Below are positions 3,080 through 42,184 of a DNA stretch of 42,184 bases, in pieces. A program made the translations under genes and the position numbers. The stretch covers positions 1-42,184 of IMG/VR virus record IMGVR_UViG_3300042516_001369. One strand, given 5' to 3'. This DNA is from a virus. Under the pieces are notes generated by a model that ran no database searches, had not been told where the DNA came from, and saw only the letters and a program-made list of their open reading frames with translations. How positions within the stretch are numbered: the stretch's first letter is position 1; the number at the start of each line of letters is the position of its first letter.

Positions 3080-3343
3080 ATGCCCACATCAACCACCGAA
3101 ACGGTCGAAATCAACGACGACGGCATGATTTCCTACAAGGAGACGACCGTCGAGACGGACGGAGGCGGAAACGTAATTTCCGTCTCGTACCGGCGGGGCG
3201 TCTATCCGCCATCAGGAAGTCCGGTCGGGATCACCGCCGTCGACACCGTCGGCAGCGTCAGCTGGACCGCCAACGTCATCGAGAAGTATGAGCAGAAGAT
3301 TTATGGCGAGTTGGGTGAGCCTATTCCCCTTGGAGGCGTCTGA
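3080..3343 (+). CDS. Hypothetical protein between fibre and tail tube genes
   Basis: 87 residues, acidic and beta-rich in appearance, with no membrane segment, no cysteine and no recognisable motif. It starts two bases after the fibre stop and its TGA overlaps the next ATG (TGATG), so it belongs to the late operon. Position between a fibre and tail tube A suggests a small virion or tail-assembly component. Function unknown. Confidence 0.65.
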   Translation: MPTSTTETVEINDDGMISYKETTVETDGGGNVISVSYRRGVYPPSGSPVGITAVDTVGSVSWTANVIEKYEQKIYGELGEPIPLGGV

Positions 3344-3930
3344 TGACCAAGCTCGAGGCCATCAACGCAATCCTCCGCCGGCTCGGGCTCACCCCAGTGT
3401 CGTCGCTGGACACCGGCGGCAACTCGACGCAGGCCCAGGCCGAGCGATACCTCGACGACGCCGATCGGTCCTGCCAGGCGCGAGGTTGGCACTTCAACAC
3501 CCGCCGGGGCGTGACGCTCGCTCGAAACGGGTCCAACAAGGTCGCCGTGCCGGCCGGGACGTACCGAATCGACACGAGCGGCTCGTGCGCCAGCATCGAC
3601 GTCTCCGTGGTCGGCGGGTTCCTGTACGACCTTGAGAACAACACCGACGTCTGGTCGCGTGACCTCGAGGTGTCGTATGTGAGTCACGCGGCCTTCACGG
3701 ACCTGCCGCAGACCTTCGCAGACTACGTCATTTCCGAAGCCGCGTTCCTCTACAACCGGGCCCACAAGGCAAACAAGGCTATCGACGGCGCGCTCGCCGC
3801 GGAGGCTGCCCGGCGCTACTCCGAGGCCAAGCGTGAGGACGACGACCGGGCCGACGTCAACGTGCTGAACACGTCCGAGATGAACCAGATGCGCGGCCGC
3901 CCGCGCATGAGAGACAGGAGCGTCTTCTGA
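3343..3930 (+). CDS. Tail tubular protein A (T7 gp11-like), copy 1
   Basis: 195 residues, matching the ~196 residues of T7 gp11. The N-terminus 'KLEAINAILRRLGLTPVSSL' followed by a D-x-x-G spacer, 'AERYLDDADRSCQARGWHFN' and the 'TRRGVTL' turn are hallmarks of the tail-tube-A (gatekeeper) family. In T7 twelve copies form a ring under the portal that joins head to tail and helps retain DNA. This is the copy most like classical gp11. It is followed at once by two more related genes and then by tail tube B, so the late gene order is conserved around it. Confidence 0.92.
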   Translation: MTKLEAINAILRRLGLTPVSSLDTGGNSTQAQAERYLDDADRSCQARGWHFNTRRGVTLARNGSNKVAVPAGTYRIDTSGSCASIDVSVVGGFLYDLENNTDVWSRDLEVSYVSHAAFTDLPQTFADYVISEAAFLYNRAHKANKAIDGALAAEAARRYSEAKREDDDRADVNVLNTSEMNQMRGRPRMRDRSVF

Positions 3931-4517
3931 TGCCAGGAATGAGCAAGCTCGATGCGGTGAATGCGTGCCTCGCCGCGGTCAACGAGTACAGGGTCACATC
4001 GCTCGACACGGGCGGGACCAGCATCGCCGGCGAGGCGGAGCGGTACGTCGACGACGCGGTCCGGTACGTCTGCACGCAGGGTTTCCCGTGCAACACCCGC
4101 AGGGCCGTCAGCTTCACGGGTGCAGGCACATCCCCGTTCGAGATCTCCATTGCCGCCGCTAACCCGGAGATCCTCCGGGTCAAGCCCGTTGGATCGACGG
4201 CGCATCGGAACGTCGTCATCCGCGGCGACAAGCTGTACGACGCAGACCGAAGCACCACCAACTTCCAGGGCCAGACCGTCTACCTCGACGTCGCCGAGCT
4301 GCTCACGTTCGCCGACCTGGACCCGACGCTCAAGGAAATGACCGTCAAGTACGCGGCGCAGCAGTTCGCGCGGCGCACCACGCAGTCGCAGCTCGCGGAT
4401 GCGTACATCTCGCAGGAGCTGGCAGCCACCGAACTCGTGACCCCGAAGAGCCCCACCTTCGGGACCAACTTCCCGATCTTCTCGCAGCAGCAGCCGCAGC
4501 AGCGGCAAGGACAGTAA
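3930..4517 (+). CDS. Tail tubular protein A-like paralogue, copy 2
   Basis: 195 residues, the same length as the preceding gene and overlapping it by one base (TGATG). Its N-terminal third aligns with copy 1: 'KLDAVNACL', 'VTSLDTGGTS', 'EAERYVDDAVRYVCTQGF' and 'CNTRRAVSF' occupy equivalent positions. The C-terminus is Gln-rich. It is clearly a paralogue within the gp11 family rather than a chance resemblance. Whether it forms a mixed ring with copy 1 or an extra adaptor layer is unknown. Confidence 0.85.
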   Translation: MPGMSKLDAVNACLAAVNEYRVTSLDTGGTSIAGEAERYVDDAVRYVCTQGFPCNTRRAVSFTGAGTSPFEISIAAANPEILRVKPVGSTAHRNVVIRGDKLYDADRSTTNFQGQTVYLDVAELLTFADLDPTLKEMTVKYAAQQFARRTTQSQLADAYISQELAATELVTPKSPTFGTNFPIFSQQQPQQRQGQ

Positions 4518-5129
4518 ATGCCCAACCCGTACTCGATCGCAGATGCGATCAACCAGGTCGCCGAGGTGCTGATCCCGTTCCCGATGTATGGGGCAGACGT
4601 CGCCGCAGGAGACGAGACGTCCGTCTACGCGGTCGCAAAGCAGTTCATTTCTCGGGCGCGCACCGACGTCTGCTCCGTCCCGACCGAGCACAACACGCAG
4701 CTCGCGAAGGAGTACTCGCTCGACGCAAACGGCAAAGCGACGCTGACGCAGGCCCCGAACGCGTTCGCCGAGCTCGGGATCAAGGCGGCCGGGCCCGACC
4801 AGTACCGCACGCTCGTCCTGCGCTGGGACAGCACCGCCACCGCGCAGATGCGGCCGTACGACGCCGACAAGGGCACGTTCGCGCTCGGAACGCCGACGAC
4901 CGGCAAGGTGTGGCTCGACGTGACCGTGCTGCTGCCCTGGGAGTCGCTGAACACCCGCATGGCCGAGCAGGTCATCGCTCGTGCCAAGCTCGCATTCCAG
5001 CGCCGCTACGCGCCGGAGCAGCTCAAGGACCTCCAGCTCCAGCAGGAGTTCCAGATGGCTGGCGACGCGTCTCGCCGGCCCGGCGACCAGGTCCCCGCCG
5101 CCATGGATCCCCGCGCCATGCGCGGTTGA
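4518..5129 (+). CDS. Probable third tail tubular protein A-like paralogue
   Basis: 203 residues directly behind copy 2. The N-terminus differs, but the C-terminal half ('VWLDVTVLLPWESLNTRMAE', then an 'AKLAFQRRYAPEQLKDLQLQ' helix) follows the order of copy 2, whose 'VYLDVAELLTFADLD' is followed by a 'KYAAQQFARRTTQSQLAD' helix, and of copy 1, where a 'LEVSYVSHAAFTDLP' strand is followed by an 'EAAFLYNRAHK' helix. Relation to gp11 is therefore inferred from co-linear motifs and near-equal length and is less certain than for copy 2. Position between gp11-like and gp12-like genes supports an adaptor role at the head-tail joint. Confidence 0.65.
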   Translation: MPNPYSIADAINQVAEVLIPFPMYGADVAAGDETSVYAVAKQFISRARTDVCSVPTEHNTQLAKEYSLDANGKATLTQAPNAFAELGIKAAGPDQYRTLVLRWDSTATAQMRPYDADKGTFALGTPTTGKVWLDVTVLLPWESLNTRMAEQVIARAKLAFQRRYAPEQLKDLQLQQEFQMAGDASRRPGDQVPAAMDPRAMRG

Positions 5130-18810: not shown

Positions 18811-19337
18811 CCATTTACAACTGAAGACCATCCAGGGCAGAAATTTGCGAGGGGGAGGGTGAACCTGGGTCGGCCGGGCGCACCCCCCGGGCCCCCCGGC
18901 CGCGCTCCGGCCCCCGGCGGCCGACATTATCGACGCCCGGCGCGGCGCCGCCCCTATGACGCGCCCGCCGCGGCCGCCGAGCGCCACAACGGCGCGCCGC
19001 GCCCGCGCCGCCGACGCGCCTCGGCCGATTCATGCGTCCGGCGTGGACTCGAACCGACGGCCGACGCCGCCGGCCAGCCGGCCGAGCGCCCGCCCGCCGA
19101 CGCGCCGGGCCCGCGCCCGCACCGCGCGCACGGCGCCGCGCCGGTCCGGATGGACCCCACGCCCCAACAACCGCGCACCGTCGCCCGCTGGCACCGCCCG
19201 TCCCGGATCCGTTCCCGGCCGGGCCCGCGCTTGCATTTATTCTAGTCGTCGCCTTGACAATGACGAGACAGCGACTATACTAGTGCCATCGGGCCCGACG
19301 TGGGCCCGGCAACGCAACGCAGGAAGGACTGACCGAC
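18811..19337. other. Extremely GC-rich noncoding stretch leading to promoter P1
   Basis: 527 bases. Bases 18860-19230 consist mainly of C and G runs (CCGCCG, GCGCC and CCCCCGGG types), so open frames there have no stops but encode low-complexity Pro/Ala/Arg strings and are not credible genes. The composition changes abruptly at 19230 to an AT-rich promoter. A GCCGGCCAGCCGGCCG-type segment near 19070 recurs in the other GC-rich gap near 22203. The function is unknown; an insulating or end-proximal segment is possible. Confidence 0.6.
19254..19281 (+). promoter_or_regulatory. Promoter P1 (host sigma-70 type)
   Basis: The -35 element TTGACA (19254-19259) matches consensus, followed by a 16-bp spacer and -10 TATACT (19276-19281). 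It sits in the only AT-rich patch of a very GC-rich region. Start of transcription is expected near 19288, about 50 bases before the first gene of the island. An imperfect dyad (CTAGTCG before the -35 and CGACTATACTAG across the -10) could be an operator. Confidence 0.85.
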
Positions 19338-19889
19338 ATGACCTACACGCTTCAACTCGACCGCAACGGGAACACGATCGTCTGCCGCGGCGCCGACGTT
19401 CGCAACGGCTACCGCATCGTTGCCGAGGGCACCTATGCGGAATGCAACGCGGCGCGCGCCGGCGCCGTCGCCCAGCAGGCGCGGCACAACCTCGACGCGA
19501 TCGAGAGCGCGCTCGTGTCGGCCCGCGCCGGCATGGCCGAGCGCCGCGCCGCGGCCGGCGCGCACTATGACGGCCGCTGGGGCACGCTCAACCGCCGCGA
19601 CGCCGTCGCGCCCGGCATCGACTGGATCGACGGCGCGAGCCACGGCGGATTCATCCTCACCGCCGACCGCGTCGCGGCCATGCCCGCCGAACTGCGCGCG
19701 GAATCGTTCAACTACGACAACTACTTCGAGGAAGATTGCAGCGCCGCGGCCGTGCTGGTCGCGTTCCCGCAGTACTTCGACGCCGACCGCGTCGCCCGCG
19801 CCGCCAAGCACCTCGACAACGTCCGCGCCTACCGCGCCGCCGTCGCCGGCGAGGTCGCCCGGATCGACGCCGCCACCCGCACCGCCTAA
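19338..19889 (+). CDS. Early accessory protein (DUF7007-like motif)
   Basis: 183 residues, first gene after P1, with a good AGGAAGGA ribosome-binding site. The C-terminal half contains 'DGASHGGFILTADRVAAMPA' and 'NYFEEDCSAAAVLVAFP', a G/S-H-G-G then E-E-D-C pattern that I recall from the DUF7007 family of phage and plasmid proteins; this is memory, not a search. The N-terminal half contains an Ala/Arg-rich helix. No catalytic assignment is possible. It is probably expressed immediately after infection from a host promoter, as for host-takeover or anti-defence genes. Confidence 0.75.
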   Translation: MTYTLQLDRNGNTIVCRGADVRNGYRIVAEGTYAECNAARAGAVAQQARHNLDAIESALVSARAGMAERRAAAGAHYDGRWGTLNRRDAVAPGIDWIDGASHGGFILTADRVAAMPAELRAESFNYDNYFEEDCSAAAVLVAFPQYFDADRVARAAKHLDNVRAYRAAVAGEVARIDAATRTA

Positions 19890-19895
19890 CCCGAG

Positions 19896-19913
19896 AGGAC
19901 CCGCCACTATGAC
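19896..19913 (+). promoter_or_regulatory. Repeated 18-base initiation block, copy 1
   Basis: AGGACCCGCCACTATGAC, containing a Shine-Dalgarno-like AGGA and the start ATG of the gene at 19909. It is identical to 20891-20908. Confidence 0.7.
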
Positions 19914-20364
19914 CATGCACAACCCACGCAAGTACACCCGCGCCGACCTCGCACCGGGCACGTTCGCGCTCGTGCGCGCCCGCGGCGGCCTCGGCGCCTT
20001 CGTCGCCCGCGTCGACGCGTTCCCCGCCGGCGCCCGTATGGCCGTCGGCGTCAGCGTCGACACCGGGCGACGCGTTCGGTTCTCGCCGGCGCGCGTGCTC
20101 GGCGTGACGGCCGACGCCGCCGAGGCCCGATCGGAATCCGACGCCCGCCGCGCCGCTCGACTCGCGCGCCGCGATCGCGTGAACCGCCAGCGATCCGAGG
20201 ATGCCGACCAGCGCCGAATCGACCGATTCAACGGCGCGCTACGCGCGCTCTTCAACGCGCACGCCGCCGCCGACTATGACGCCCGCCACGGCGCCCGGTC
20301 CGATGGCTTCCCGCCCAGCGACAGCGACCCGGCCACGGGCGCCCAGTACGGAGAGGCCGTCTAA
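19909..20364 (+). CDS. Early hypothetical protein
   Basis: 151 residues. The start ATG at 19909 follows AGGACCCGCCACT, the same 18-base context found at 20891; a second in-frame ATG is at 19915. The N-terminal ~65 residues look like a small beta barrel ('GTFALVRARGGLGAFVARVD', 'RVRFSPARVLGV'), the rest is a basic, Arg-rich helix ('RRAARLARRDRVNRQRSEDA') that could bind nucleic acid. No family recognised. Its TAA overlaps the next ATG (TAATG). Confidence 0.7.
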   Translation: MTMHNPRKYTRADLAPGTFALVRARGGLGAFVARVDAFPAGARMAVGVSVDTGRRVRFSPARVLGVTADAAEARSESDARRAARLARRDRVNRQRSEDADQRRIDRFNGALRALFNAHAAADYDARHGARSDGFPPSDSDPATGAQYGEAV

Positions 20365-21197
20365 TGCCACGCGAACGCATTACCTCGGCCATGCTCGGCG
20401 ACGCCGTCGCCGCATTGAATCGCGAACTCGGCCGCCAGCCGGGAACGCCCGGCGCCTACGGCATCCTCGGCGCCTATGACGGCTGGCAGCTCGCCACGTT
20501 CGCGGCCTCCGGCGCCGGCAGCGTCGACCACGTAGCGCTACCCGTCGGCCACGGCTACCACCCGCGGCGCGCCGTCTATGACGCCGTGCAGGCCATCCGG
20601 CACGGGCTCGCGCTCGGCCGCGCCGGCACGCCCCTACGCGCCGGCACGCTGAACGCGATCGCCGACCTTATGGAATCCATCGAGGCCGAGCCCGTCGCAA
20701 CCGGGAACGAATGGACCGACGAGCACGCCGCGCTATGCCGCGTGCAGCAACGGCCGACCGTGCAGACGCTCGCCGGCGAGCCGCTCGCCCGTGCCGAGCT
20801 CGATGCTTGGGCCGTCGGGCATTGTGACTTTGAACCAGCCGACGCGGCCGACACCCGCGCCGACGTAGCCGTCGCAACCACCATGCAGGAAGGACCCGCC
20901 ACTATGACGCACCGCAACCAGCAACCGATCGCCGACGCCAACGGAAACACCGTCGGACGATTGTCGGTAAAGCTGGCACCGCCCGAAACCGTCGCCGTGC
21001 ACGTTCCGCGTGCCGACGCCGACACGCTCGCCGATGCGCTGTATACGGCCGCGGAACGTGCCGCCAGCGACGCCGAGGATCATCCCGCCGACGACGACCC
21101 CGAAACGGCCGAGGAACTGCGCGAACACGTCGCCGCCCTCGACCGACTCGCCGACGCTATCGCCGCCGCCGTGCGGCAGGAAGGAACTGCCCGATGA
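20364..21197 (+). CDS. Early hypothetical protein; apparent in-frame fusion of two genes
   Basis: 277 residues. Residues 1-~172 form one unit ('GAYGILGAYDGWQLATFAAS', 'GLALGRAGTPLRAGTLNAIADLM'). Residues 175-180 (QEGPAT) are simply the translation of a perfect ribosome-binding block, and the ATG at 20904 that follows would start a 97-residue acidic protein ('MTHRNQQPIADANGNTVGRL', ending in a helix with 'TAEELREHVAALDRLADAI'). Thus either a stop codon was lost, fusing two genes, or the downstream protein is also made separately by internal initiation. No function recognised. Confidence 0.7.
   Translation: MPRERITSAMLGDAVAALNRELGRQPGTPGAYGILGAYDGWQLATFAASGAGSVDHVALPVGHGYHPRRAVYDAVQAIRHGLALGRAGTPLRAGTLNAIADLMESIEAEPVATGNEWTDEHAALCRVQQRPTVQTLAGEPLARAELDAWAVGHCDFEPADAADTRADVAVATTMQEGPATMTHRNQQPIADANGNTVGRLSVKLAPPETVAVHVPRADADTLADALYTAAERAASDAEDHPADDDPETAEELREHVAALDRLADAIAAAVRQEGTAR
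20891..20908 (+). promoter_or_regulatory. Repeated 18-base initiation block, copy 2 (inside an ORF)
   Basis: Identical to 19896-19913 but lying in frame within the ORF 20364-21197, where it is translated. It fixes the candidate internal start at 20904. Confidence 0.7.
20904..21197 (+). CDS. Possible internally initiated 97-residue protein (same frame as 20364-21197)
   Basis: The ATG at 20904 is preceded by exactly the same 13 bases (AGGACCCGCCACT) that precede the gene at 19909, giving an 18-base identity including ATGAC. The protein is acidic at the C-terminus and unlike the upstream half of the long ORF. The repeated initiation context is the reason to list it separately; whether it is translated independently cannot be told from sequence. 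Confidence 0.5.
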   Translation: MTHRNQQPIADANGNTVGRLSVKLAPPETVAVHVPRADADTLADALYTAAERAASDAEDHPADDDPETAEELREHVAALDRLADAIAAAVRQEGTAR

Positions 21198-21952
21198 ACC
21201 TGCCCCAGCTTCCGCGCGTCACCGGCTTCGAGCTCTGGCGCGGCCGATCGCACTATGACGGCGCCGACGTGGTCGCCGTCGCCACGCTCCAGACCTCGAA
21301 CCGGAAAACCGGCGATATGGTCCAGACGTGGATTCTCCGCACCGACCGCCCGCCGGTCGACGCCGTCGCCGACGGCACCGATGCCGCAATCTGCGGAACG
21401 TGCCCGCACCGGCGCGACGACGACGGCCGGCGCTCGTGCTACGTCAACGTAGGACAGGCGCCCCAGTCCGTACACCGCGCATGGATGGCCGGCGCCTACC
21501 CGCGCGCCGACCGCCACGACCGGTACGCGATCGGCCGCGGGCGCGCCGTGCGCCTCGGCGCGTACGGGGATCCGGCCATGGTGCCGGCGCGCATATGGCG
21601 CGACCTCATCCGCGACGCCGTCGGCCACACCGGCTATACGCACCAATGGCGCCGGCCGTTCGCGGCCGAGCACCGCGCGCTATGCATGGCGTCGGTCGAT
21701 TCGCCGGCCGAACTCGCCGAGGCCCGCGCGGCCGGCTGGCGCACGTTCCGCGTCCGATCCGAGGCCGAGCCCATGCGGCCCGGGGAAATCGCGTGCCCAG
21801 CGTCGCCGGAAGGCGGCCGCCGCGCCCAGTGCGCCGACTGCCTGCTATGCCGCGGCGCCACGGACCGCCGCGGCATCGTCGCCGGAATCGCGATCGTCGC
21901 CCACGGATCCGGCGCGACGCACTTCGAGAGGCGGACCCCGTGCAGCGCCTAA
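21194..21952 (+). CDS. Conserved Cys-rich phage/bacterial protein (DUF7227-like)
   Basis: 252 residues, ATGA-overlapping the preceding gene. Cys clusters 'AICGTCPHR', 'RSCYVNVGQAPQSV', 'IACPAS' and 'CADCLLCRG' could bind metal or an iron-sulfur cluster. 'GRAVRLGAYGDPAMVPARIW', 'GHTGYTHQWR' and 'AAGWRTFRVR' are very characteristic; I recall this as a family widespread in proteobacterial genomes and phages (DUF7227, unverified). Its distant similarity in layout to radical-SAM-like TIM barrels is only an impression. It is the best recognised gene of the GC-rich island and is typical accessory cargo. Confidence 0.75.
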   Translation: MNLPQLPRVTGFELWRGRSHYDGADVVAVATLQTSNRKTGDMVQTWILRTDRPPVDAVADGTDAAICGTCPHRRDDDGRRSCYVNVGQAPQSVHRAWMAGAYPRADRHDRYAIGRGRAVRLGAYGDPAMVPARIWRDLIRDAVGHTGYTHQWRRPFAAEHRALCMASVDSPAELAEARAAGWRTFRVRSEAEPMRPGEIACPASPEGGRRAQCADCLLCRGATDRRGIVAGIAIVAHGSGATHFERRTPCSA

Positions 21953-22044
21953 CCCCGTGCGCGTGGTGGCTCGCGCTGCTGGTCGCCGTCGCCGCGTGGC
22001 AGGCGCTCGACCGCCGCCCGGCCGACCCGCCGCCGCGCCCGTAG
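21940..22044 (+). CDS. Putative 34-residue membrane peptide
   Basis: A GTG-initiated frame overlapping the preceding gene by 13 bases, with a GAGAGGCGG Shine-Dalgarno-like stretch a few bases upstream. It encodes one hydrophobic segment ('WWLALLVAVAAW') and a Pro/Arg tail, and a candidate terminator hairpin follows 26 bases later. Very short and in a GC-rich region where stops are scarce, so it may be spurious. Confidence 0.35.
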   Translation: MQRLTPCAWWLALLVAVAAWQALDRRPADPPPRP

Positions 22045-22069
22045 CGCGCGCCCTATGACGCCCACCCCC

Positions 22070-22100
22070 GCGCCCGTCGGCCCCGTGCCGCGGGCGCTTT
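22070..22100 (+). terminator. Candidate terminator after the GC-rich island genes
   Basis: A 7-bp stem GCGCCCG (22070) with CGGGCGC (22091), with an inner CGG/CCG pairing, followed by TTT. The U-run is short, so efficiency is uncertain. Its position just past the last island gene supports the call. Confidence 0.4.
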
Positions 22101-22335
22101 GCCATGGGCACCGCGCCCGCCGCGCCCGACGCGCCCGCCGGCGCCGCGCCCCGAGCGCCAACGCTGGCGCCGGCCGTGCCGGCCCGCCCGAGCGCCGAGC
22201 GGCGCCGGCCAGCCGGCCGCGCGCGCCGGCGCCCATCCGCGCCCCGGCGCCGAGCGCCGCCGGCCCGCCCGGCGCCGCCCGCCCGCCCGGCCCGCCCGGC
22301 ACGCCCGGCCGGCCAAGTTGACCCCGGCTCTCGCG

Positions 22336-22359
22336 TGTCCACATCCCGGCTGTCCACAT
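22336..22359. repeat. Direct TGTCCACAT repeats upstream of P2 (operator candidate)
   Basis: TGTCCACAT occurs at 22336-22344 and 22351-22359, 15 bp apart, ending 8 bases before the P2 -35 box. Both copies are followed by C/G-rich CGG. The placement suits an activator or repressor bound next to RNA polymerase at a promoter that leads to the integrase. Confidence 0.55.
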
Positions 22360-22367
22360 TCGGACTC

Positions 22368-22395
22368 TTGACTTTGACTAGGTACGCACTACAAT
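22368..22395 (+). promoter_or_regulatory. Promoter P2 (host sigma-70 type)
   Basis: The -35 TTGACT (22368-22373) and -10 TACAAT (22390-22395) are separated by 16 bp. TTGACT is repeated immediately downstream as TTGACTA. It lies 36 bases ahead of the gene at 22431 and would transcribe three small genes and the integrase. Confidence 0.75.
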
Positions 22396-22430
22396 CTGAC
22401 AAGCGCAGAAAGCGCAGAGAGGAGCGCCGC

Positions 22431-22712
22431 ATGGCGTCTATGCAGGAGATCGATGAGTTGTTCACGAGGGTGTGGGAATACCCGATCGATGCGAACGGCA
22501 AGTTCGGGGAGACGGCGGTCGCGCACACCTACTGGCATACCAGGTGGAAGGACGAACCGGCCAAGCTCACCTGGGCCGTCGTCCACATGGTGTCGCACGG
22601 CGCAGACATTCACGCGATCATGCGCTCGATCGCGAAGGGTGAAGCTCCCGACGGCATGGTGCCGCTCGAGGACGCCGACCGCGCGCTCGAGCAGATCAGG
22701 AGTAACGCATGA
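22431..22712 (+). CDS. Early hypothetical protein
   Basis: 93 residues from an ATG preceded by GAGAGGAG at proper spacing. It is soluble and mixed-charge, with 'FTRVWEYPIDANGKFGETAV' and 'LTWAVVHMVSHGADIHAIMR'. No metal-binding pattern beyond scattered His. First gene after P2; its stop overlaps the next start (ATGA). Function unknown. Confidence 0.7.
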   Translation: MASMQEIDELFTRVWEYPIDANGKFGETAVAHTYWHTRWKDEPAKLTWAVVHMVSHGADIHAIMRSIAKGEAPDGMVPLEDADRALEQIRSNA

Positions 22713-22906: not shown

Positions 22907-23085
22907 AGCGGTACTTTCCGAGGGAATCCGATCGAGACAGGATCAAGCGTGAGTTCCAGAAGGAATTCGGGTTCCTTCCGTGGAACCAGGCGACGTCCAT
23001 TCGGGAGCCGGTGATCGCGACGATCATCTTCGTCGCCGTGATGCTCACGCTCACGCTCACCATCAAATCATGCAGGGGGGAATGA
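22903..23085 (+). CDS. 60-residue single-span membrane protein
   Basis: It has a charged N-terminal ~30 residues ('RDRIKREFQKEFGFLPW') and one clear transmembrane segment ('VIATIIFVAVMLTLTLTI'), then a short 'KSCRGE' tail. It overlaps both neighbours through ATGA. Role unknown; early membrane peptides of T7-like phages often act on host membrane proteins or exclude other phages. Confidence 0.65.
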   Translation: MKRYFPRESDRDRIKREFQKEFGFLPWNQATSIREPVIATIIFVAVMLTLTLTIKSCRGE

Positions 23086-24233
23086 TGGTCACGCTCAACA
23101 AGAACGGCAAGTACTGGCAGGCCAGGTGGACGGATCCCGTGACGGGCAGGCTCTGCCGGCGCGGGCTCGGCGCGCGCGTGCAGGTGACGCGCCAGCAGGC
23201 GGCCGCGCTCTGCAAGCTCATCGCCGACGAGGTGTCGCACAACGCGCTCGCGTCGCTTGAGCCGGCGCCCGCGCCGGAGCCGCCGCCGTCTCCGACCATC
23301 GCCGAGTTCCGCGACCGATGGCTCGCGCAGCAGCACTCGCTGATGGAGTCGACCATGCGGATGCACCAGCGTTACTGGCGCATGATCTGCGAGCAGTTCG
23401 GCACGAGCACCAGGCTCGACGAGGTCACGCCGGACATGGTGCTCGACGCGCGCATCCGCATGGGTTCTCGAGCCGACCTGCTGCACGGCGCCGGCACGCT
23501 GCGCCGCGCCAAGGCCGAGACGACGATCGCACGGATGTGCCGCAACGCGCGCAAGTACTGGCACGACGCCGTCCGCGACGGCCTCGCGCACGGCAACCCG
23601 TGGACCGCCGTCCGCACGACGGCCCCGGAGATCCAGGTGCCGCGCCGGGTCCTCACCGACGACGAGGTCGAGCGCATCATGCGCCACTCGAAGGGCGGGG
23701 TGCGCCTGGTGATCGCGCTGTGCTACTTCGCCGGCCTGCGCCGGCACGAGGCGATCGGGCTGCGCTGGGAGCACGTCGACTTCGACCGCAACCGGATCGT
23801 CGTATGGCCCAAGGCATACGTCGTGACGAGCAAGCACAAGCACCGGGAAGTCAGGCTCGAGCCGCGCCTGGCAGAGATCCTGCGGGAGGCCCCGCGCACG
23901 AGCGAGCGCGTCGTCGGCAGCGTCACCGAGGCCCGTGCATGGCTCGACATGAAGAACGCAGCCGTGAAGGCCGGCGTCACCGGCGACGTCTCGTACCAGC
24001 TCATGCGTTCGAGCCGCGAGAACCACTGGTTCGCGGCCGGCTACCCGGCCAACGTCGTCACGAGCTGGGTCGGGCACTCCCCGCAGGTCGCGGCAAAGCA
24101 CTACCGCGGCGTGGCCGAGCGGTACTACACCGATGAAGCACCTGCTTCACCGCAGTCGGCCGCGAGCGAGATCGCCGCGCTCCGCGAACAACTGCAAGCC
24201 CTTCAAGCCGCCATACTTGGGCGCGCGTCCTGA
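23082..24233 (+). CDS. int: Tyrosine recombinase/integrase
   Basis: 383 residues; an AGGGGGG ribosome-binding site precedes ATG 23082. An N-terminal Arm-binding-like segment ('NGKYWQARWTDPVTGR'), a SAM-like core-binding helical domain (about 70-180), then the catalytic domain: R220 in 'AGLRRHEAIGLRW', Lys at 251/253, R309 in 'QLMRSSRENHW', H332 in 'WVGHS' and nucleophile Y341 in 'AAKHY'. The usual His of the H-x-x-R box is replaced by Gln306, a tolerated variant. A Leu/Ala-rich C-terminal helix follows. It would integrate phage DNA into the host chromosome, implying a temperate life cycle. Confidence 0.93.
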   Translation: MMVTLNKNGKYWQARWTDPVTGRLCRRGLGARVQVTRQQAAALCKLIADEVSHNALASLEPAPAPEPPPSPTIAEFRDRWLAQQHSLMESTMRMHQRYWRMICEQFGTSTRLDEVTPDMVLDARIRMGSRADLLHGAGTLRRAKAETTIARMCRNARKYWHDAVRDGLAHGNPWTAVRTTAPEIQVPRRVLTDDEVERIMRHSKGGVRLVIALCYFAGLRRHEAIGLRWEHVDFDRNRIVVWPKAYVVTSKHKHREVRLEPRLAEILREAPRTSERVVGSVTEARAWLDMKNAAVKAGVTGDVSYQLMRSSRENHWFAAGYPANVVTSWVGHSPQVAAKHYRGVAERYYTDEAPASPQSAASEIAALREQLQALQAAILGRAS

Positions 24234-37684: not shown

Positions 37685-38830
37685 ATGAGCAACGTCAACT
37701 ACGAGCGCATCCTGGCCTCGTGGAACGGGTCCGCCCACGATTCCACGGACAGCCTGGCGCTGAAGGTCTTCTCGGGCATGGTGCTCGAGGCATTCCAGCA
37801 GTCCACCCAGTTCTACGACCGCACCGGCCAGTTCATCTCGGTCAAGGTCATCGAGGGCGCCAACTCGGCCCAGTGGCCGATCCTCGGCGACGACCCGGCC
37901 CCGTCGTACCACACCCCCGGCGTCGTGCTGAACAACACGGTCAGCTCGCCGCGCATCAAGACCGCCTCGGCCGACGTCGTCGTGGACGAGATCCTCGTCA
38001 ACGCCCTCGACGTCCCCTTCCGCGACATGGAGATCAGCCACTTCGACGTGCTGGCCCCCTTCGCGACGAAGCTCGGCCGCGGCATCGCGAAGGTGCTCGA
38101 CAAGAAGATCGCGATCCTCGCGGTCAAGGCGGCCCGCACCGCCAGCGTCACCAGCCTCCACGGCGGCGGCTACAAGGTCGAGCGCAACTCGTCCGGCTCC
38201 GGCAGCACCCTGCTGACCGACGGCTCGGCGTACCAGCTCTCGCCCCGCGGCGCCTACAACTTCCGCTCGGACGTCGCGTCCCTGGCCCAGGCCATGGACG
38301 AGAAGGCCGTGCCGGAGAGCAGCCGCTACCTGTTCATCACGCCCTACATCAAGAGCGTGCTCCGGTTCGAGGCCAACTTCGACGGCACGAACCTGACCAG
38401 CGTGCCGGTGCTCCCGTCGACGTACGACCAGAACCTCAACACCAGCCCGAACGACGTCAACAACCGCGTCATCGGGATGCTCGAGGGCTTCAAGGTCATC
38501 GTCACCAACCACCTGCCCAGCGGTGACCTGACCGGCAACAGCCTGACCGGCGAGGACGCGGCCATCGCGTACACGTCCGGTTCCGGCACGACCGGCGGCA
38601 AGTACCAGGGCCTCTTCGACGGCTCCACGCAGGCGGGTGGCCGCCCCGTGGCCGTGGCCCTGTGCGGCGCCGACACCGGCAGCCCGGCGATCGGCATGGT
38701 CCAGGCGTCCGGCCTGCGGTCGTACGTCGAGGCCGACGAGCGGCGCAACACGCAGTTCATGAAGGCCCAGATGATGGCCGGCATGGGCATCATCTGCCCG
38801 TGGTCGGCGGGCGTGATCCAGGTGTACTGA
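37685..38830 (+). CDS. Major capsid protein (T7 gp10-like)
   Basis: 381 residues, against 345-398 in T7. 'LASWNGSAHDSTDSLALKVF' and 'GMVLEAFQQSTQFYDRTGQF' followed by a 'GKTAQFP'-like 'NSAQWPILGDDPAPSYHTPG' segment are typical of T7-type HK97-fold capsids; the end 'MMAGMGIICPWSAGVIQVY' resembles the usual P-E-A-A/G-V C-terminus. Codon choice is almost exclusively C- or G-ending, consistent with selection for very high expression. Flanked by terminators on both sides, so it forms a separate transcription unit. Confidence 0.95.
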   Translation: MSNVNYERILASWNGSAHDSTDSLALKVFSGMVLEAFQQSTQFYDRTGQFISVKVIEGANSAQWPILGDDPAPSYHTPGVVLNNTVSSPRIKTASADVVVDEILVNALDVPFRDMEISHFDVLAPFATKLGRGIAKVLDKKIAILAVKAARTASVTSLHGGGYKVERNSSGSGSTLLTDGSAYQLSPRGAYNFRSDVASLAQAMDEKAVPESSRYLFITPYIKSVLRFEANFDGTNLTSVPVLPSTYDQNLNTSPNDVNNRVIGMLEGFKVIVTNHLPSGDLTGNSLTGEDAAIAYTSGSGTTGGKYQGLFDGSTQAGGRPVAVALCGADTGSPAIGMVQASGLRSYVEADERRNTQFMKAQMMAGMGIICPWSAGVIQVY

Positions 38831-38841
38831 TCCCTCTTCAG

Positions 38842-38888
38842 CCCCCGGATCGGCGGGGGTGGGCCTTCGGGTCCACCCCCGCTTCTTC
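38842..38888 (+). terminator. Strong intrinsic terminator T3 behind the capsid gene
   Basis: A 12-bp stem (38854-38865 with 38870-38881, one G-U pair) closes on a C-TTCG-G tetraloop and is followed by CTTCTTCC. A CCCCCG at 38842 can also pair with the 5' arm, offering an alternative fold. It is equivalent in position to T7's late terminator T-phi. Confidence 0.82.
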
Positions 38889-38908
38889 CGGGCGACGGAA
38901 CCACAGAC

Positions 38909-39115
38909 ATGACCATGCGAGACGACCGGATCGTTTCACTCTCGTTCAAGGACTGGCTCGGCTTGATCGGCCTGGTCGCGTCCATCCTCACCGTGGTGTT
39001 CACCATGCACGTCGGCATCGTCCGCATGATGGAGCGCATGAGCACCACCCTCGACCACCACGCCAGCCGGCTCGACCGCATCGAGATCCGGCTCGACAAG
39101 GACACCAAGCCATGA
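38909..39115 (+). CDS. Small single-span membrane protein, holin candidate
   Basis: 68 residues; a short N-terminus, one membrane segment at about 18-36 ('GLIGLVASILTVVFTMHVG') and a charged helical C-terminus ('HHASRLDRIEIRLDKDTK'). Size and topology resemble T7 gp17.5 (67 residues, one span). It follows the capsid terminator and precedes the fibre block. Function as holin is inferred from topology only. Stop overlaps the next start (ATGA). Confidence 0.65.
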   Translation: MTMRDDRIVSLSFKDWLGLIGLVASILTVVFTMHVGIVRMMERMSTTLDHHASRLDRIEIRLDKDTKP

Positions 39116-39687
39116 ACATCCAGCCCAACATCGTCACCAAGGGCGGGGACGCGCTGTCCACGTCCGTCACCGGGAGCGCCGTCGGCGCCTTCCTGTCGAC
39201 CCACCAGCCCCGGTGGCAGTGGAAGGCCCTGACCCGCGACGGAACGACCTACAGCGCGTACGGCACGCTCGGCACCAAGCCGACGACCAACGTCCTGTAC
39301 GAGTCGTCCCTCGACCACCCGACGCTGGTGCGCCTCATGCCGTTCACCGGCACCAGCACGAACACCACCGGCGGCATCCGCGTGGTCGGCTGGTCCATGT
39401 ACATGGACGGCGCGAACGAGGACTGGGTGCCGACGGTGCTCGCTGACATCTCGCTGACGCGGACGAGCGGGACGACCGTCAAGAACGCGGTCGGAGGAAC
39501 GGACTTCTACCCGTACGCCGGCGGCGGTGTCACCACCGGAACCCCGGCCCCGAACCTCTACGCGCTCGGGAACACCTCGACGAACCCGCCCGCATCGGTC
39601 GTGGTCGACGCCCTCGGGTCGCAGCTGATCCAGGTGACCTGCATCGCGCCGGCAGGCGACTTCGGCGTCATGTGGTGCGTCCTCTGA
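39112..39687 (+). CDS. Putative virion or decoration protein
   Basis: 191 residues from ATG 39112; Thr/Gly/Ser/Val-rich and beta-like ('TSVTGSAVGAFLSTHQPRWQ', 'GGIRVVGWSMYMDGANEDWV'), lacking signal, membrane or catalytic motifs. Position between the capsid gene and the fibre suggests a virion surface or fibre-anchoring component. No family recognised. Confidence 0.65.
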   Translation: MNIQPNIVTKGGDALSTSVTGSAVGAFLSTHQPRWQWKALTRDGTTYSAYGTLGTKPTTNVLYESSLDHPTLVRLMPFTGTSTNTTGGIRVVGWSMYMDGANEDWVPTVLADISLTRTSGTTVKNAVGGTDFYPYAGGGVTTGTPAPNLYALGNTSTNPPASVVVDALGSQLIQVTCIAPAGDFGVMWCVL

Positions 39688-39690
39688 TCC

Positions 39691-41412
39691 ATGCGTAATC
39701 TCCTCGGTCGGCTCCGGAGGTCGGGCTCACGGTCGCTCGTCGAGCAGCTGGCGACACTCACCTCCGTCGGCGACGGCTCCACGCTCAACCTCGACTTCAC
39801 CACGGGCGTACTTGACCCGCGCCTGTCGTTCTCGCGGTTGGGCGATGCCACCTTCATCAACAGCAGCGGGCTGGTGCAGTTTGCGAACGCAAACCTGATG
39901 ACCTACAGCAATCCGCGACAAACGGGTACTGCGTGGGGAACTACTGGTACGGTCACATGGGGGAGCAGCACACTTACTGACCCAACCGGAGGATCAGCAG
40001 CACAGTCGATTACGTTTGGCACTACTGGTTCTGCAATCTTCAATACGTCCGGAACGACGGTTGTTTCCGGTATTACCCACACATTTTCTGTGTGGATGCG
40101 CTCCGCAACCGGAACAACTACTGTCAGAATCGGAGATGCGAATGTCGCTCCAGTCGCTACGGTAACTCTCACTACGACGTGGCAGAGATTCAGTTGCCAA
40201 TACACGACTTCAGGAACGAACGACGGCGGCGCGATTTATAGTCAGACTGGAACACCAAGCGCGGAGTTCTATGTCTGGGGCGCACAAGTCCAACCTGGCA
40301 GCATCGTCGGCGAACTGCTTCAAACGAGCGGAACAATCAACAACAACATCCCACGCTTCGACCACGACCCGACCACGCTCGCGCCGAGGGGACTGCTGAT
40401 TGAAGGTGCGGCGACGAACCTTGCAAGGCGTAGTGATGATTTCAATACTACGGTGACTGATGGCACTCAATGGGTTGCAGCCGGTTACACAGCGGGAACA
40501 TTGTCAACAACTCTTCCTGACGGAACCACAGGCAACGCACGAAGGATCAGTACTGCGTCTGGATCTGGGTCGTTCCGTTCTGCTGACATTACGGTCACGG
40601 CATCAACTGCGTACACGTTTTCGTTTTGGGCGCGAAATAATGGAGGATCGCAGGCACGATTCCGTGTCTGGAACGTAACGGCTGGTTCTTCCATCGTTGA
40701 CTACACGCAATCCATCAACAACTATGTCTCGCAGATTGGCGGCGCAAACAACACATCCTCTACCTGGGTTCGCGTGTCCGTTCAATTTACGACGCCCGCA
40801 GGATGCACAGCAATCTACGTCTACCCAACTTCAAGCGATGCCGGCACGGTTGATCTGTTGATTTGGGGCGCACAGGTCGAAGCAGGTTCCGTCTCCTCGT
40901 ACATCCCCACGGTCGCAAGCACGGCGACGAGGGCCGCGGACAACTGCTACGCAGATTCAATTTCTTCGTGGTACACGCAGGGAAGCGGGACGATGTTGTT
41001 CTTCGGAAGGCCAACAGTTCCTTCTACCAGAACCATGCTTACCTTCAGCGTTGGCACAAATGTTCCGCGAATTCAAATGTACGGAAGCACATCTACGGAT
41101 GTGGTCTGCTTTTTGGAGAATCCATCAGGTACTGGAGCAAACATCGTCTTTCCGTCTGGAACATTGGTGAACGGAACAGCGTTCAAATCAGCATGGGCTT
41201 TTGAAACTGGAAATCACGCCGCTTGCATCAATGCAGGAACGGTTGCCACCGCTAGTACGTCATCACCAGCGGTTCCTTCATCTGGAATCACCCGACTCAA
41301 CATCGGAATGCGATATGACGGATTCAACCAATTCAACGGTCACGTGATTTCTGCGAAGTATTGGCCTACCCGTTTGGCAAACGCAACCCTTCAAGCAATT
41401 ACGACCCTCTGA
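39691..41412 (+). CDS. Tail fibre/adhesin with tandem carbohydrate-binding-like domains
   Basis: 573 residues. The N-terminus contains 'LDFTTGVLDPRLSFSRLGDA', a common opening of environmental phage adhesins, then a first CBM-like unit ('THTFSVWMRSATGTTTVRIG', 'FYVWGAQVQPGS'), the bridge 'RFDHDPTTLAPRGLLIEGAA', a second CBM-like unit ('AYTFSFWARNNGGSQARFRV', 'LLIWGAQVEAGS') and a LamG-like C-terminal tip. It should bind host surface glycans. From ~39,880 on, base composition is markedly less GC-rich than neighbouring genes, a sign of horizontal acquisition. Residues 333-417 recur in the fibre at 1-753. Confidence 0.85.
   Translation: MRNLLGRLRRSGSRSLVEQLATLTSVGDGSTLNLDFTTGVLDPRLSFSRLGDATFINSSGLVQFANANLMTYSNPRQTGTAWGTTGTVTWGSSTLTDPTGGSAAQSITFGTTGSAIFNTSGTTVVSGITHTFSVWMRSATGTTTVRIGDANVAPVATVTLTTTWQRFSCQYTTSGTNDGGAIYSQTGTPSAEFYVWGAQVQPGSIVGELLQTSGTINNNIPRFDHDPTTLAPRGLLIEGAATNLARRSDDFNTTVTDGTQWVAAGYTAGTLSTTLPDGTTGNARRISTASGSGSFRSADITVTASTAYTFSFWARNNGGSQARFRVWNVTAGSSIVDYTQSINNYVSQIGGANNTSSTWVRVSVQFTTPAGCTAIYVYPTSSDAGTVDLLIWGAQVEAGSVSSYIPTVASTATRAADNCYADSISSWYTQGSGTMLFFGRPTVPSTRTMLTFSVGTNVPRIQMYGSTSTDVVCFLENPSGTGANIVFPSGTLVNGTAFKSAWAFETGNHAACINAGTVATASTSSPAVPSSGITRLNIGMRYDGFNQFNGHVISAKYWPTRLANATLQAITTL
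40687..40882. repeat. Second copy of the fibre-domain repeat (matches 1-196)
   Basis: Partner of the block at 1-196, in the same orientation and the same reading frame, inside the fibre gene at 39691-41412. The DNA-level identity is much higher than in the flanking receptor-binding tips, suggesting recent duplication or continuing gene conversion. Confidence 0.9.
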
Positions 41413-41413
41413 C

Positions 41414-41716
41414 ATGGACTACCTACTCCGATCAACCACCGAGTCCGACCTCGACGATGCCCTCATTGCCGCAGGGCTTGCCGAGGAACGCACCGACATT
41501 GACGGCGAGGTCATGGTGCTGCCCGTCACGGGTGTCACGCTTGACCGCATCGGGCCGATTCCGGCACAGGTTGATGAGGAAGGGATCATCGTCCGGCCCG
41601 GCGACAACCGCTACCACGCGAACATCCGCGCCACCATTGAGCTGACCGAAGCCCAGGTGGAGGCGCTGCCGACGTTCACGCCCGAGCCGACCATCCCGTA
41701 CCGGGTGTTCGCGTGA
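41414..41716 (+). CDS. Small fibre-partner protein, copy 2
   Basis: 100 residues, starting two bases after the fibre stop. Paralogue of 750-1055: shared blocks 'LDRIGPIP', 'RPGDNRYHANIRATIELTE' and 'QVEALPTFTPEP', with divergent N-terminal ~35 residues. The conserved part is at the C-terminus, the variable part at the N-terminus, as expected if the N-terminus meets the variable fibre tip. Function inferred from linkage only. Confidence 0.8.
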   Translation: MDYLLRSTTESDLDDALIAAGLAEERTDIDGEVMVLPVTGVTLDRIGPIPAQVDEEGIIVRPGDNRYHANIRATIELTEAQVEALPTFTPEPTIPYRVFA

Positions 41717-42184
41717 GGGCGATTGTCCTCGTCTTGTTCCTAGCCGGGTGCAACCCGGTCGCACGCATCTCGGCGAACGCAACGGCGATCCGCAACGAGG
41801 CCGGGGCGCTCATCGACCACGGAAACGCCATCGGCGACCAGGTCGTGGTGCAGGGCGCGACCCGCATCGACGAGCACGCCGCGGCGATCCACGGCGACAT
41901 CCCGAACGTGCAGGCGGTCACGCCGGCGTGGTTGTCCACCCTGAAGTGGTGGGGCATCGCGCTGGCGGTCGCCGGCGTGGCGTTCGTCCTGGCGCAGAGC
42001 GGGGCGTTTACGGCCGTCCGCATCGCCATCGGGTGGCTGCCTCGCCGGAAGGTGGCAGCCGCCGAGCTCGCCGTCGATACACTTGATGAATCCCGTCCCG
42101 AGGGGGACAGGGAACTCGTCACGCTGCTCCGGGCGGACCCGGAGTTCGACGCGGCGTTCAAACGCGCCAAGGGGCGCAGAAAGA
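41713..42184 (+). CDS. Phage lipoprotein with one membrane segment, copy 2 (3' end cut off by window)
   Basis: 157 residues remain in the window from GTG 41713, which overlaps the upstream TGA. Lipobox LFLAGC, then 'NPVARISANATAIRNEA' identical to copy 1 at 1046; the membrane segment at about 75-93 ('WWGIALAVAGVAFVLAQSG') and 'GWLPRRKV' also match. The C-terminal tail diverges. No stop codon is reached before base 42184. Same candidate roles as copy 1. Confidence 0.75.
   Translation, partial: MRAIVLVLFLAGCNPVARISANATAIRNEAGALIDHGNAIGDQVVVQGATRIDEHAAAIHGDIPNVQAVTPAWLSTLKWWGIALAVAGVAFVLAQSGAFTAVRIAIGWLPRRKVAAAELAVDTLDESRPEGDRELVTLLRADPEFDAAFKRAKGRRK

Follow-up and report, generated by a model that had tools for sequence, protein, structure and literature searches.

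Apparent duplication of a fibre, partner, and lipoprotein gene set at the ends of a T7-like phage contig as the probable assembly product of one variable locus

The fibre, partner, and lipoprotein genes that occur at both ends of a 42,184-nt viral contig very probably derive from the assembly of one variable fibre locus and not from a phage that carries two fibres. The window, by which we mean the whole stretch of DNA that was analysed, is the entire IMG/VR record IMGVR_UViG_3300042516_001369 (42,184 nt), which is classed as linear, such that both ends of the window are contig ends. PHROGs matches to a phage RNA polymerase, head-tail adaptor, capsid, terminase, and tail proteins identify a T7-like podovirus, all of whose capsid matches among isolated phages fall below 60% identity (the best, 27%, being to Rhizobium phages). 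Neither the lipoprotein nor the partner protein has a match among isolated phages, and a genome scan aimed at the host returned no bacterial or archaeal relatives of the lipoprotein. A tyrosine integrase (22980-24233; Phage_integrase, E 1e-11), encoded in addition to the phage's own T7-like RNA polymerase, points to a possibly temperate phage. In the unannotated region at 18859-22712, each strand has long open frames, and there are very G+C-rich repeats (families D5 and D12). The two gene sets, termed A at the left end and B at the right end, consist of the following features.

1-753, + strand: C-terminal part of the native fibre, with the end of the second CBM-like domain and the variable tip (phrog_5939, E 2e-20)
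1-77, + strand: 77-nt stretch identical to 40687-40763, the putative assembly-graph fork (k = 77)
750-1055, + strand: partner, native copy, 101 aa (phrog_18574, E 0.0015)
1046-1531, + strand: lipoprotein with a TM helix, native copy, start at 1046 or 1052; type-1 C-terminus, followed by the 43-aa peptide
1528-1659, + strand: 43-aa TM peptide, 100% identical in amino acids in the relative L006
1656-3077, + strand: next fibre-like gene, which in relatives follows the single cassette
39112-39687, + strand: conserved gene upstream of the fibre, found in relatives of both lineages
39691-40686, + strand: N-terminal 332 codons of the fibre, with the anchor region, the first CBM-like module, and the start of the second
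40687-40763, + strand: second occurrence of the 77-nt stretch, within a 195-nt exact match (40645-40839) to L067
40764-41412, + strand: fibre tip B, attributed tentatively to another phage or to a variant strain
41414-41716, + strand: partner B, 100 aa, closest to phages of the type-2 lineage (85% to L024 and L026)
41713-42184, + strand: lipoprotein B, cut at the contig end, with a type-2 C-terminus

The initial annotation described three genes in the same order and with the same overlaps at both ends. Their homology and order are borne out, with similarities far beyond chance. The fibres are 94% identical in nucleotides over 1-251 versus 40687-40934 and 49% identical in amino acids over their whole overlap, with tips that differ beyond approximately residue 80, and the amino acid identities of the partners and lipoproteins are 60% and 70%, respectively. 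The overlaps agree between partner and lipoprotein (4 nt in both sets, if the left lipoprotein starts at the ATG at 1052) but not between fibre and partner, which share 4 nt on the left (ATGA, 750-753) and are separated by a 1-nt gap on the right (the stop ends at 41412, and the ATG is at 41414). The window does start inside a fibre and stop inside a lipoprotein: the left fibre comprises only the C-terminal 250 codons, its 5' part being absent at the contig start, and the right lipoprotein runs up to the record's final base, a few codons short of the stop known from relatives. A second copy of the 43-aa peptide is absent from the window, the record ending before its expected place. The right-end fibre is complete (573 aa), is separated from the capsid gene by two small genes, and contains CBM_4_9-like domains (Pfam PF02018, 44.8 bits versus a cut-off of 25.9). 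The small protein encoded directly after the capsid gene (38909-39115) has a weak holin match (phrog_1350, E 0.0085), and its position is conserved in relatives.

The left end of the contig begins with a sequence that recurs exactly inside it and diverges directly afterward. Bases 1 to 77 are identical to 40687-40763, a mismatch follows at base 78, and the next 75 bases are again identical; these two matches are the sole exact repeats of at least 30 nt in the window. From a contig start that lies exactly 77 bases ahead of a divergence, we infer a fork in a de Bruijn graph with k = 77, a value that is read from this single junction. Because it is shorter than this k, the 75-base match cannot re-merge the branches. 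The earlier proposal that the assembly opened at a shared stretch is supported, that stretch being exactly 77 identical bases. Codon 333 of the fibre begins at position 40687, and the reading frame at base 1 is the same; closure at the repeat yields one 582-aa fibre and a 40,686-bp circle, and the closed 582-codon fibre is similar to the whole fibres of relatives (e.g., 600 aa in L018). Exact identities longer than 77 nt exist across phages, as in L067, an unrelated 62.6-kb phage record that shares 195 nt with the fibre B segment, and such forks are therefore to be expected.

De Bruijn assemblies are known to break at conserved stretches longer than k, with chimeric joins across them (PMC11443906), and host-interaction loci are among the regions that are hard to assemble (PMC6350398). 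As in those virome cases, a shared stretch of at least k with differing flanks lies in a host-interaction gene, and the contig is broken there; unlike those cases (PMC11443906, PMC6350398), the contig would circle the whole genome, and the presence of both branches in one record would mimic a duplication.

Gene order in relatives places the two ends at one site. The order is capsid, small gene, the gene corresponding to 39112-39687, fibre, partner, lipoprotein, small peptide, fibre-like gene, and tail gene, with one lipoprotein (in L004 and L058, no partner is recognised at the locus). Nine related contigs span the site with one lipoprotein each: six (L004, L006, L007, L058, L076, and L077) extend from capsid to tail, L056 reaches the gene before the tail gene, and L016 and L074 run into the tail. 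The first half of this order is found at the right end of the window and the second half at the left end, such that the two ends belong to the same genomic site, which supports that part of the initial reading. The closest relative, L006, has a capsid that is 100% identical in amino acids, is 98% identical in nucleotides over 38800-39836, and shares 241 nt exactly with the left end, a match that runs from the lipoprotein end across the 43-aa peptide into the following gene. Since L006 matches both ends and the gene order is split between them, the ends of the window face each other at one locus. Farther into the window, three consecutive genes (3343-5129) match the tail family phrog_446 (E 3e-41, 2e-23, and 2e-6), a run of tail-gene paralogues at least two of which are present in relatives.

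Copy number also favours a single locus, as does the spacing if the ends join at the repeat. In a profile search of 45 records, many of them 30 to 62 kb, 43 match the lipoprotein once each and the window alone has two, counts from which the closest strains may be missing, since records closely similar to the window may have been left out of the searches. Among the contigs that match the capsid, 8 of 17 terminate within this gene block. With the window closed at the repeat, the distance from capsid to tail is 5,202 nt, which is within the 4,243 to 5,477 nt of the relatives that reach the tail gene; two modules in tandem would require no less than 6,700 nt, to which the missing 5' fibre DNA would have to be added. 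None of the related contigs joins the two copies on one molecule.

The lipoproteins at the two ends belong to different lineages. A comparison of 56 loci distinguishes two lineage-specific forms of the C-terminus. Type 1 mostly precedes a MID-type or similar peptide and then the fibre-like and tail genes of the window phage, and type 2 mostly precedes a MILADF- or MSEFLG-type peptide. All 37 type-2 genes lack the flanks of the window phage, which accompany 15 of the 19 type-1 genes. The left lipoprotein is of type 1 (98% to L006), and the right is of type 2, its C-terminus being 100% identical in amino acids to those of L024, L026, L032, L034, and L029. Moreover, the last 102 nt of the window exactly match the end of another contig, L070, which runs on into type-2 surroundings, and 14 of 15 tested records, mostly of type 2, lack the RNA polymerase family of the window phage. 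The type-2 C-terminus, the match to L070, and the absence of the RNA polymerase together point to another phage or a co-occurring variant as the most likely source of the right end, joined through the near-identical carbohydrate-binding segment. The exact point of the switch from native to foreign DNA is not fixed: the first 97 codons of fibre B (39691-39981) are identical to L052, a close relative by capsid and the sole match when the fibre N-terminal DNA was searched in other records, and the fork lies at 40687-40763.

These findings fit a phage with a single fibre-partner-lipoprotein locus, which would lie between the capsid gene and the tail genes. Its genome would have been assembled as an opened circle, with the contig starting at the k = 77 fork in the second carbohydrate-binding-like domain of the fibre, running from the native fibre tip across its partner, the lipoprotein, and the 43-aa peptide to the remaining genome, and returning to the start of the same fibre, such that 39691-40686 would be the missing 5' part of the native gene. 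After passing the same 77-mer again, the contig would have taken the other branch, into the tip, partner, and lipoprotein genes that another phage or a variant strain in the same sample would have contributed, and it would have ended at the 3' end of lipoprotein B, where known relatives diverge. We infer both this behaviour of the assembler and the presence of a second phage in the same sample. The initial annotation had itself named one locus misassembled from strain variants as the outcome that would overturn two modules, and this is the better explanation.

Within this explanation, the owner of set B could instead be a member of the same species, some members carrying set B at the same locus, with a recombinant lipoprotein that has a type-2 C-terminus. 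This version, which differs solely in the ownership of set B, gains from the movement of fibre tips, partners, and lipoprotein N-terminal halves between lineages, but the C-terminus is of type 1 in all 15 loci of the window type, and the 102 nt shared with the end of L070 lead into type-2 surroundings, making it a minority possibility.

A true tandem duplication is less probable still. It would place two adjacent modules in one genome, the upstream one from the other lineage, with approximately 1 kb missing from the assembly (the end of a lipoprotein, a small peptide, and the N-terminus of a second fibre). Order and reading frames are intact in both sets, a recent recombinant with tandem modules would likewise leave a shared stretch, and L067 demonstrates that pieces of fibre tip and partner can become tandem after recombination. 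Nevertheless, no relative has such an arrangement, every other record with the gene has one lipoprotein, the spacing would fall outside the range of relatives, and a type-2 lipoprotein would have to reside in a type-1 genome, a combination unseen in 37 type-2 loci; tandem modules also need missing sequence, of which the closed circle needs none. The proposal of two modules in one genome is thus not supported, given the single modules of relatives, the lack of any other record with two lipoproteins, and a right lipoprotein whose C-terminus is that of the other lineage. There is a correspondingly slim chance that the contig represents a T7-like phage caught as a recombination intermediate, with its native and just-acquired modules adjacent, which could bind two receptors. 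That set B serves as a functional reserve for receptor switching by recombination between fibre copies is highly implausible: a near-identical segment followed by different tips would suit that role, but the two copies would have to share a genome, against the comparative evidence, and no invertase site or reverse-transcriptase cassette came to notice.

Although the phage probably has one module, the fibre tips, partners, and N-terminal (periplasmic) halves of the lipoproteins are, as judged by sequence comparison, exchanged between unrelated environmental phages. A fibre match lies directly upstream of 64 partner genes and is absent for 2, and the fibre-partner pair travels jointly, occurring in phages both with and without the RNA polymerase family of the window phage. 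A fixed cassette of three genes is rejected, as the partner is directly upstream of only 25 of 45 lipoproteins and a lipoprotein follows only 27 of 59 partners. The N-terminal halves of the lipoproteins in L006, L007, and the left copy are nearest to those of type-2 phages (97 to 98%), whereas the C-terminal halves follow the genome lineage. Partner distances correlate more strongly with those of the lipoprotein N-terminal half (r = 0.44, P = 0.002) than with those of the C-terminal half (r = 0.20, P = 0.06), the permutation P values ignoring shared ancestry. This pattern fits exchange through two crossovers, located in the fibre and inside the lipoprotein, respectively, and we propose that the fibre tip, the partner, and the periplasmic half of the lipoprotein constitute an exchangeable host-recognition segment. 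In L067 (2495-3014; also in L066), approximately 41 aa of a partner N-terminus and a fibre C-terminal end motif form one fusion, after which comes a complete second partner gene; insertion of a foreign fibre tip and partner apparently left this scar.

A similar exchange of host-recognition modules is known from the distantly related Alteromonas phages A5, V22, and P24 (PMC10579305). As in those phages, a fibre and a directly following small partner gene are common to unrelated genome types, and the end of the tip is shared (PMC10579305). Their partner is a chaperone of 195 to 240 aa that resembles intramolecular chaperone domains, as opposed to approximately 100 aa here (PMC10579305), and, unlike in A5, V22, and P24, part of the lipoprotein gene is exchanged as well.

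The model of the partner is confident (pLDDT 87) and yields no PDB match with E under 0.2; the fourth-ranked hit in the fold search, a chaperone, is not significant, and proteins that are uncharacterised or unnamed account for the good viral matches. In the lipoprotein, the lipobox cysteine is invariant, and the TM helix is central, with approximately 50 residues after it. Its periplasmic part is short, is predicted to be helical, and has no cysteine after the lipobox (model pLDDT 70, low confidence). Unimolecular spanins of the T1 gp11 type are defined by a lipobox and a C-terminal TM domain and span both membranes (PMC6139136). The lipoprotein resembles them in combining a lipobox near the N-terminus with a TM helix in one protein and in having no periplasmic cysteine beyond the lipobox, but it differs in that the helix is in mid-protein and the periplasmic part is predicted to be helical, not beta. 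Its sole match to a spanin family is marginal (Rz-like, E 0.055), and, given also the short helical periplasmic part and the tail after the helix, the protein is not grouped with the u-spanins here.

Very similar CBM-coding DNA shared between genomes would allow natural recombination at this site and would also break assemblies there. As a probable example of a circular genome whose single variable locus passes for a duplicated gene cassette, the window illustrates the tell-tale signs, these being an exact k-length identity at the contig end, in-frame closure, the copy counts of relatives, and lineage-specific gene ends.
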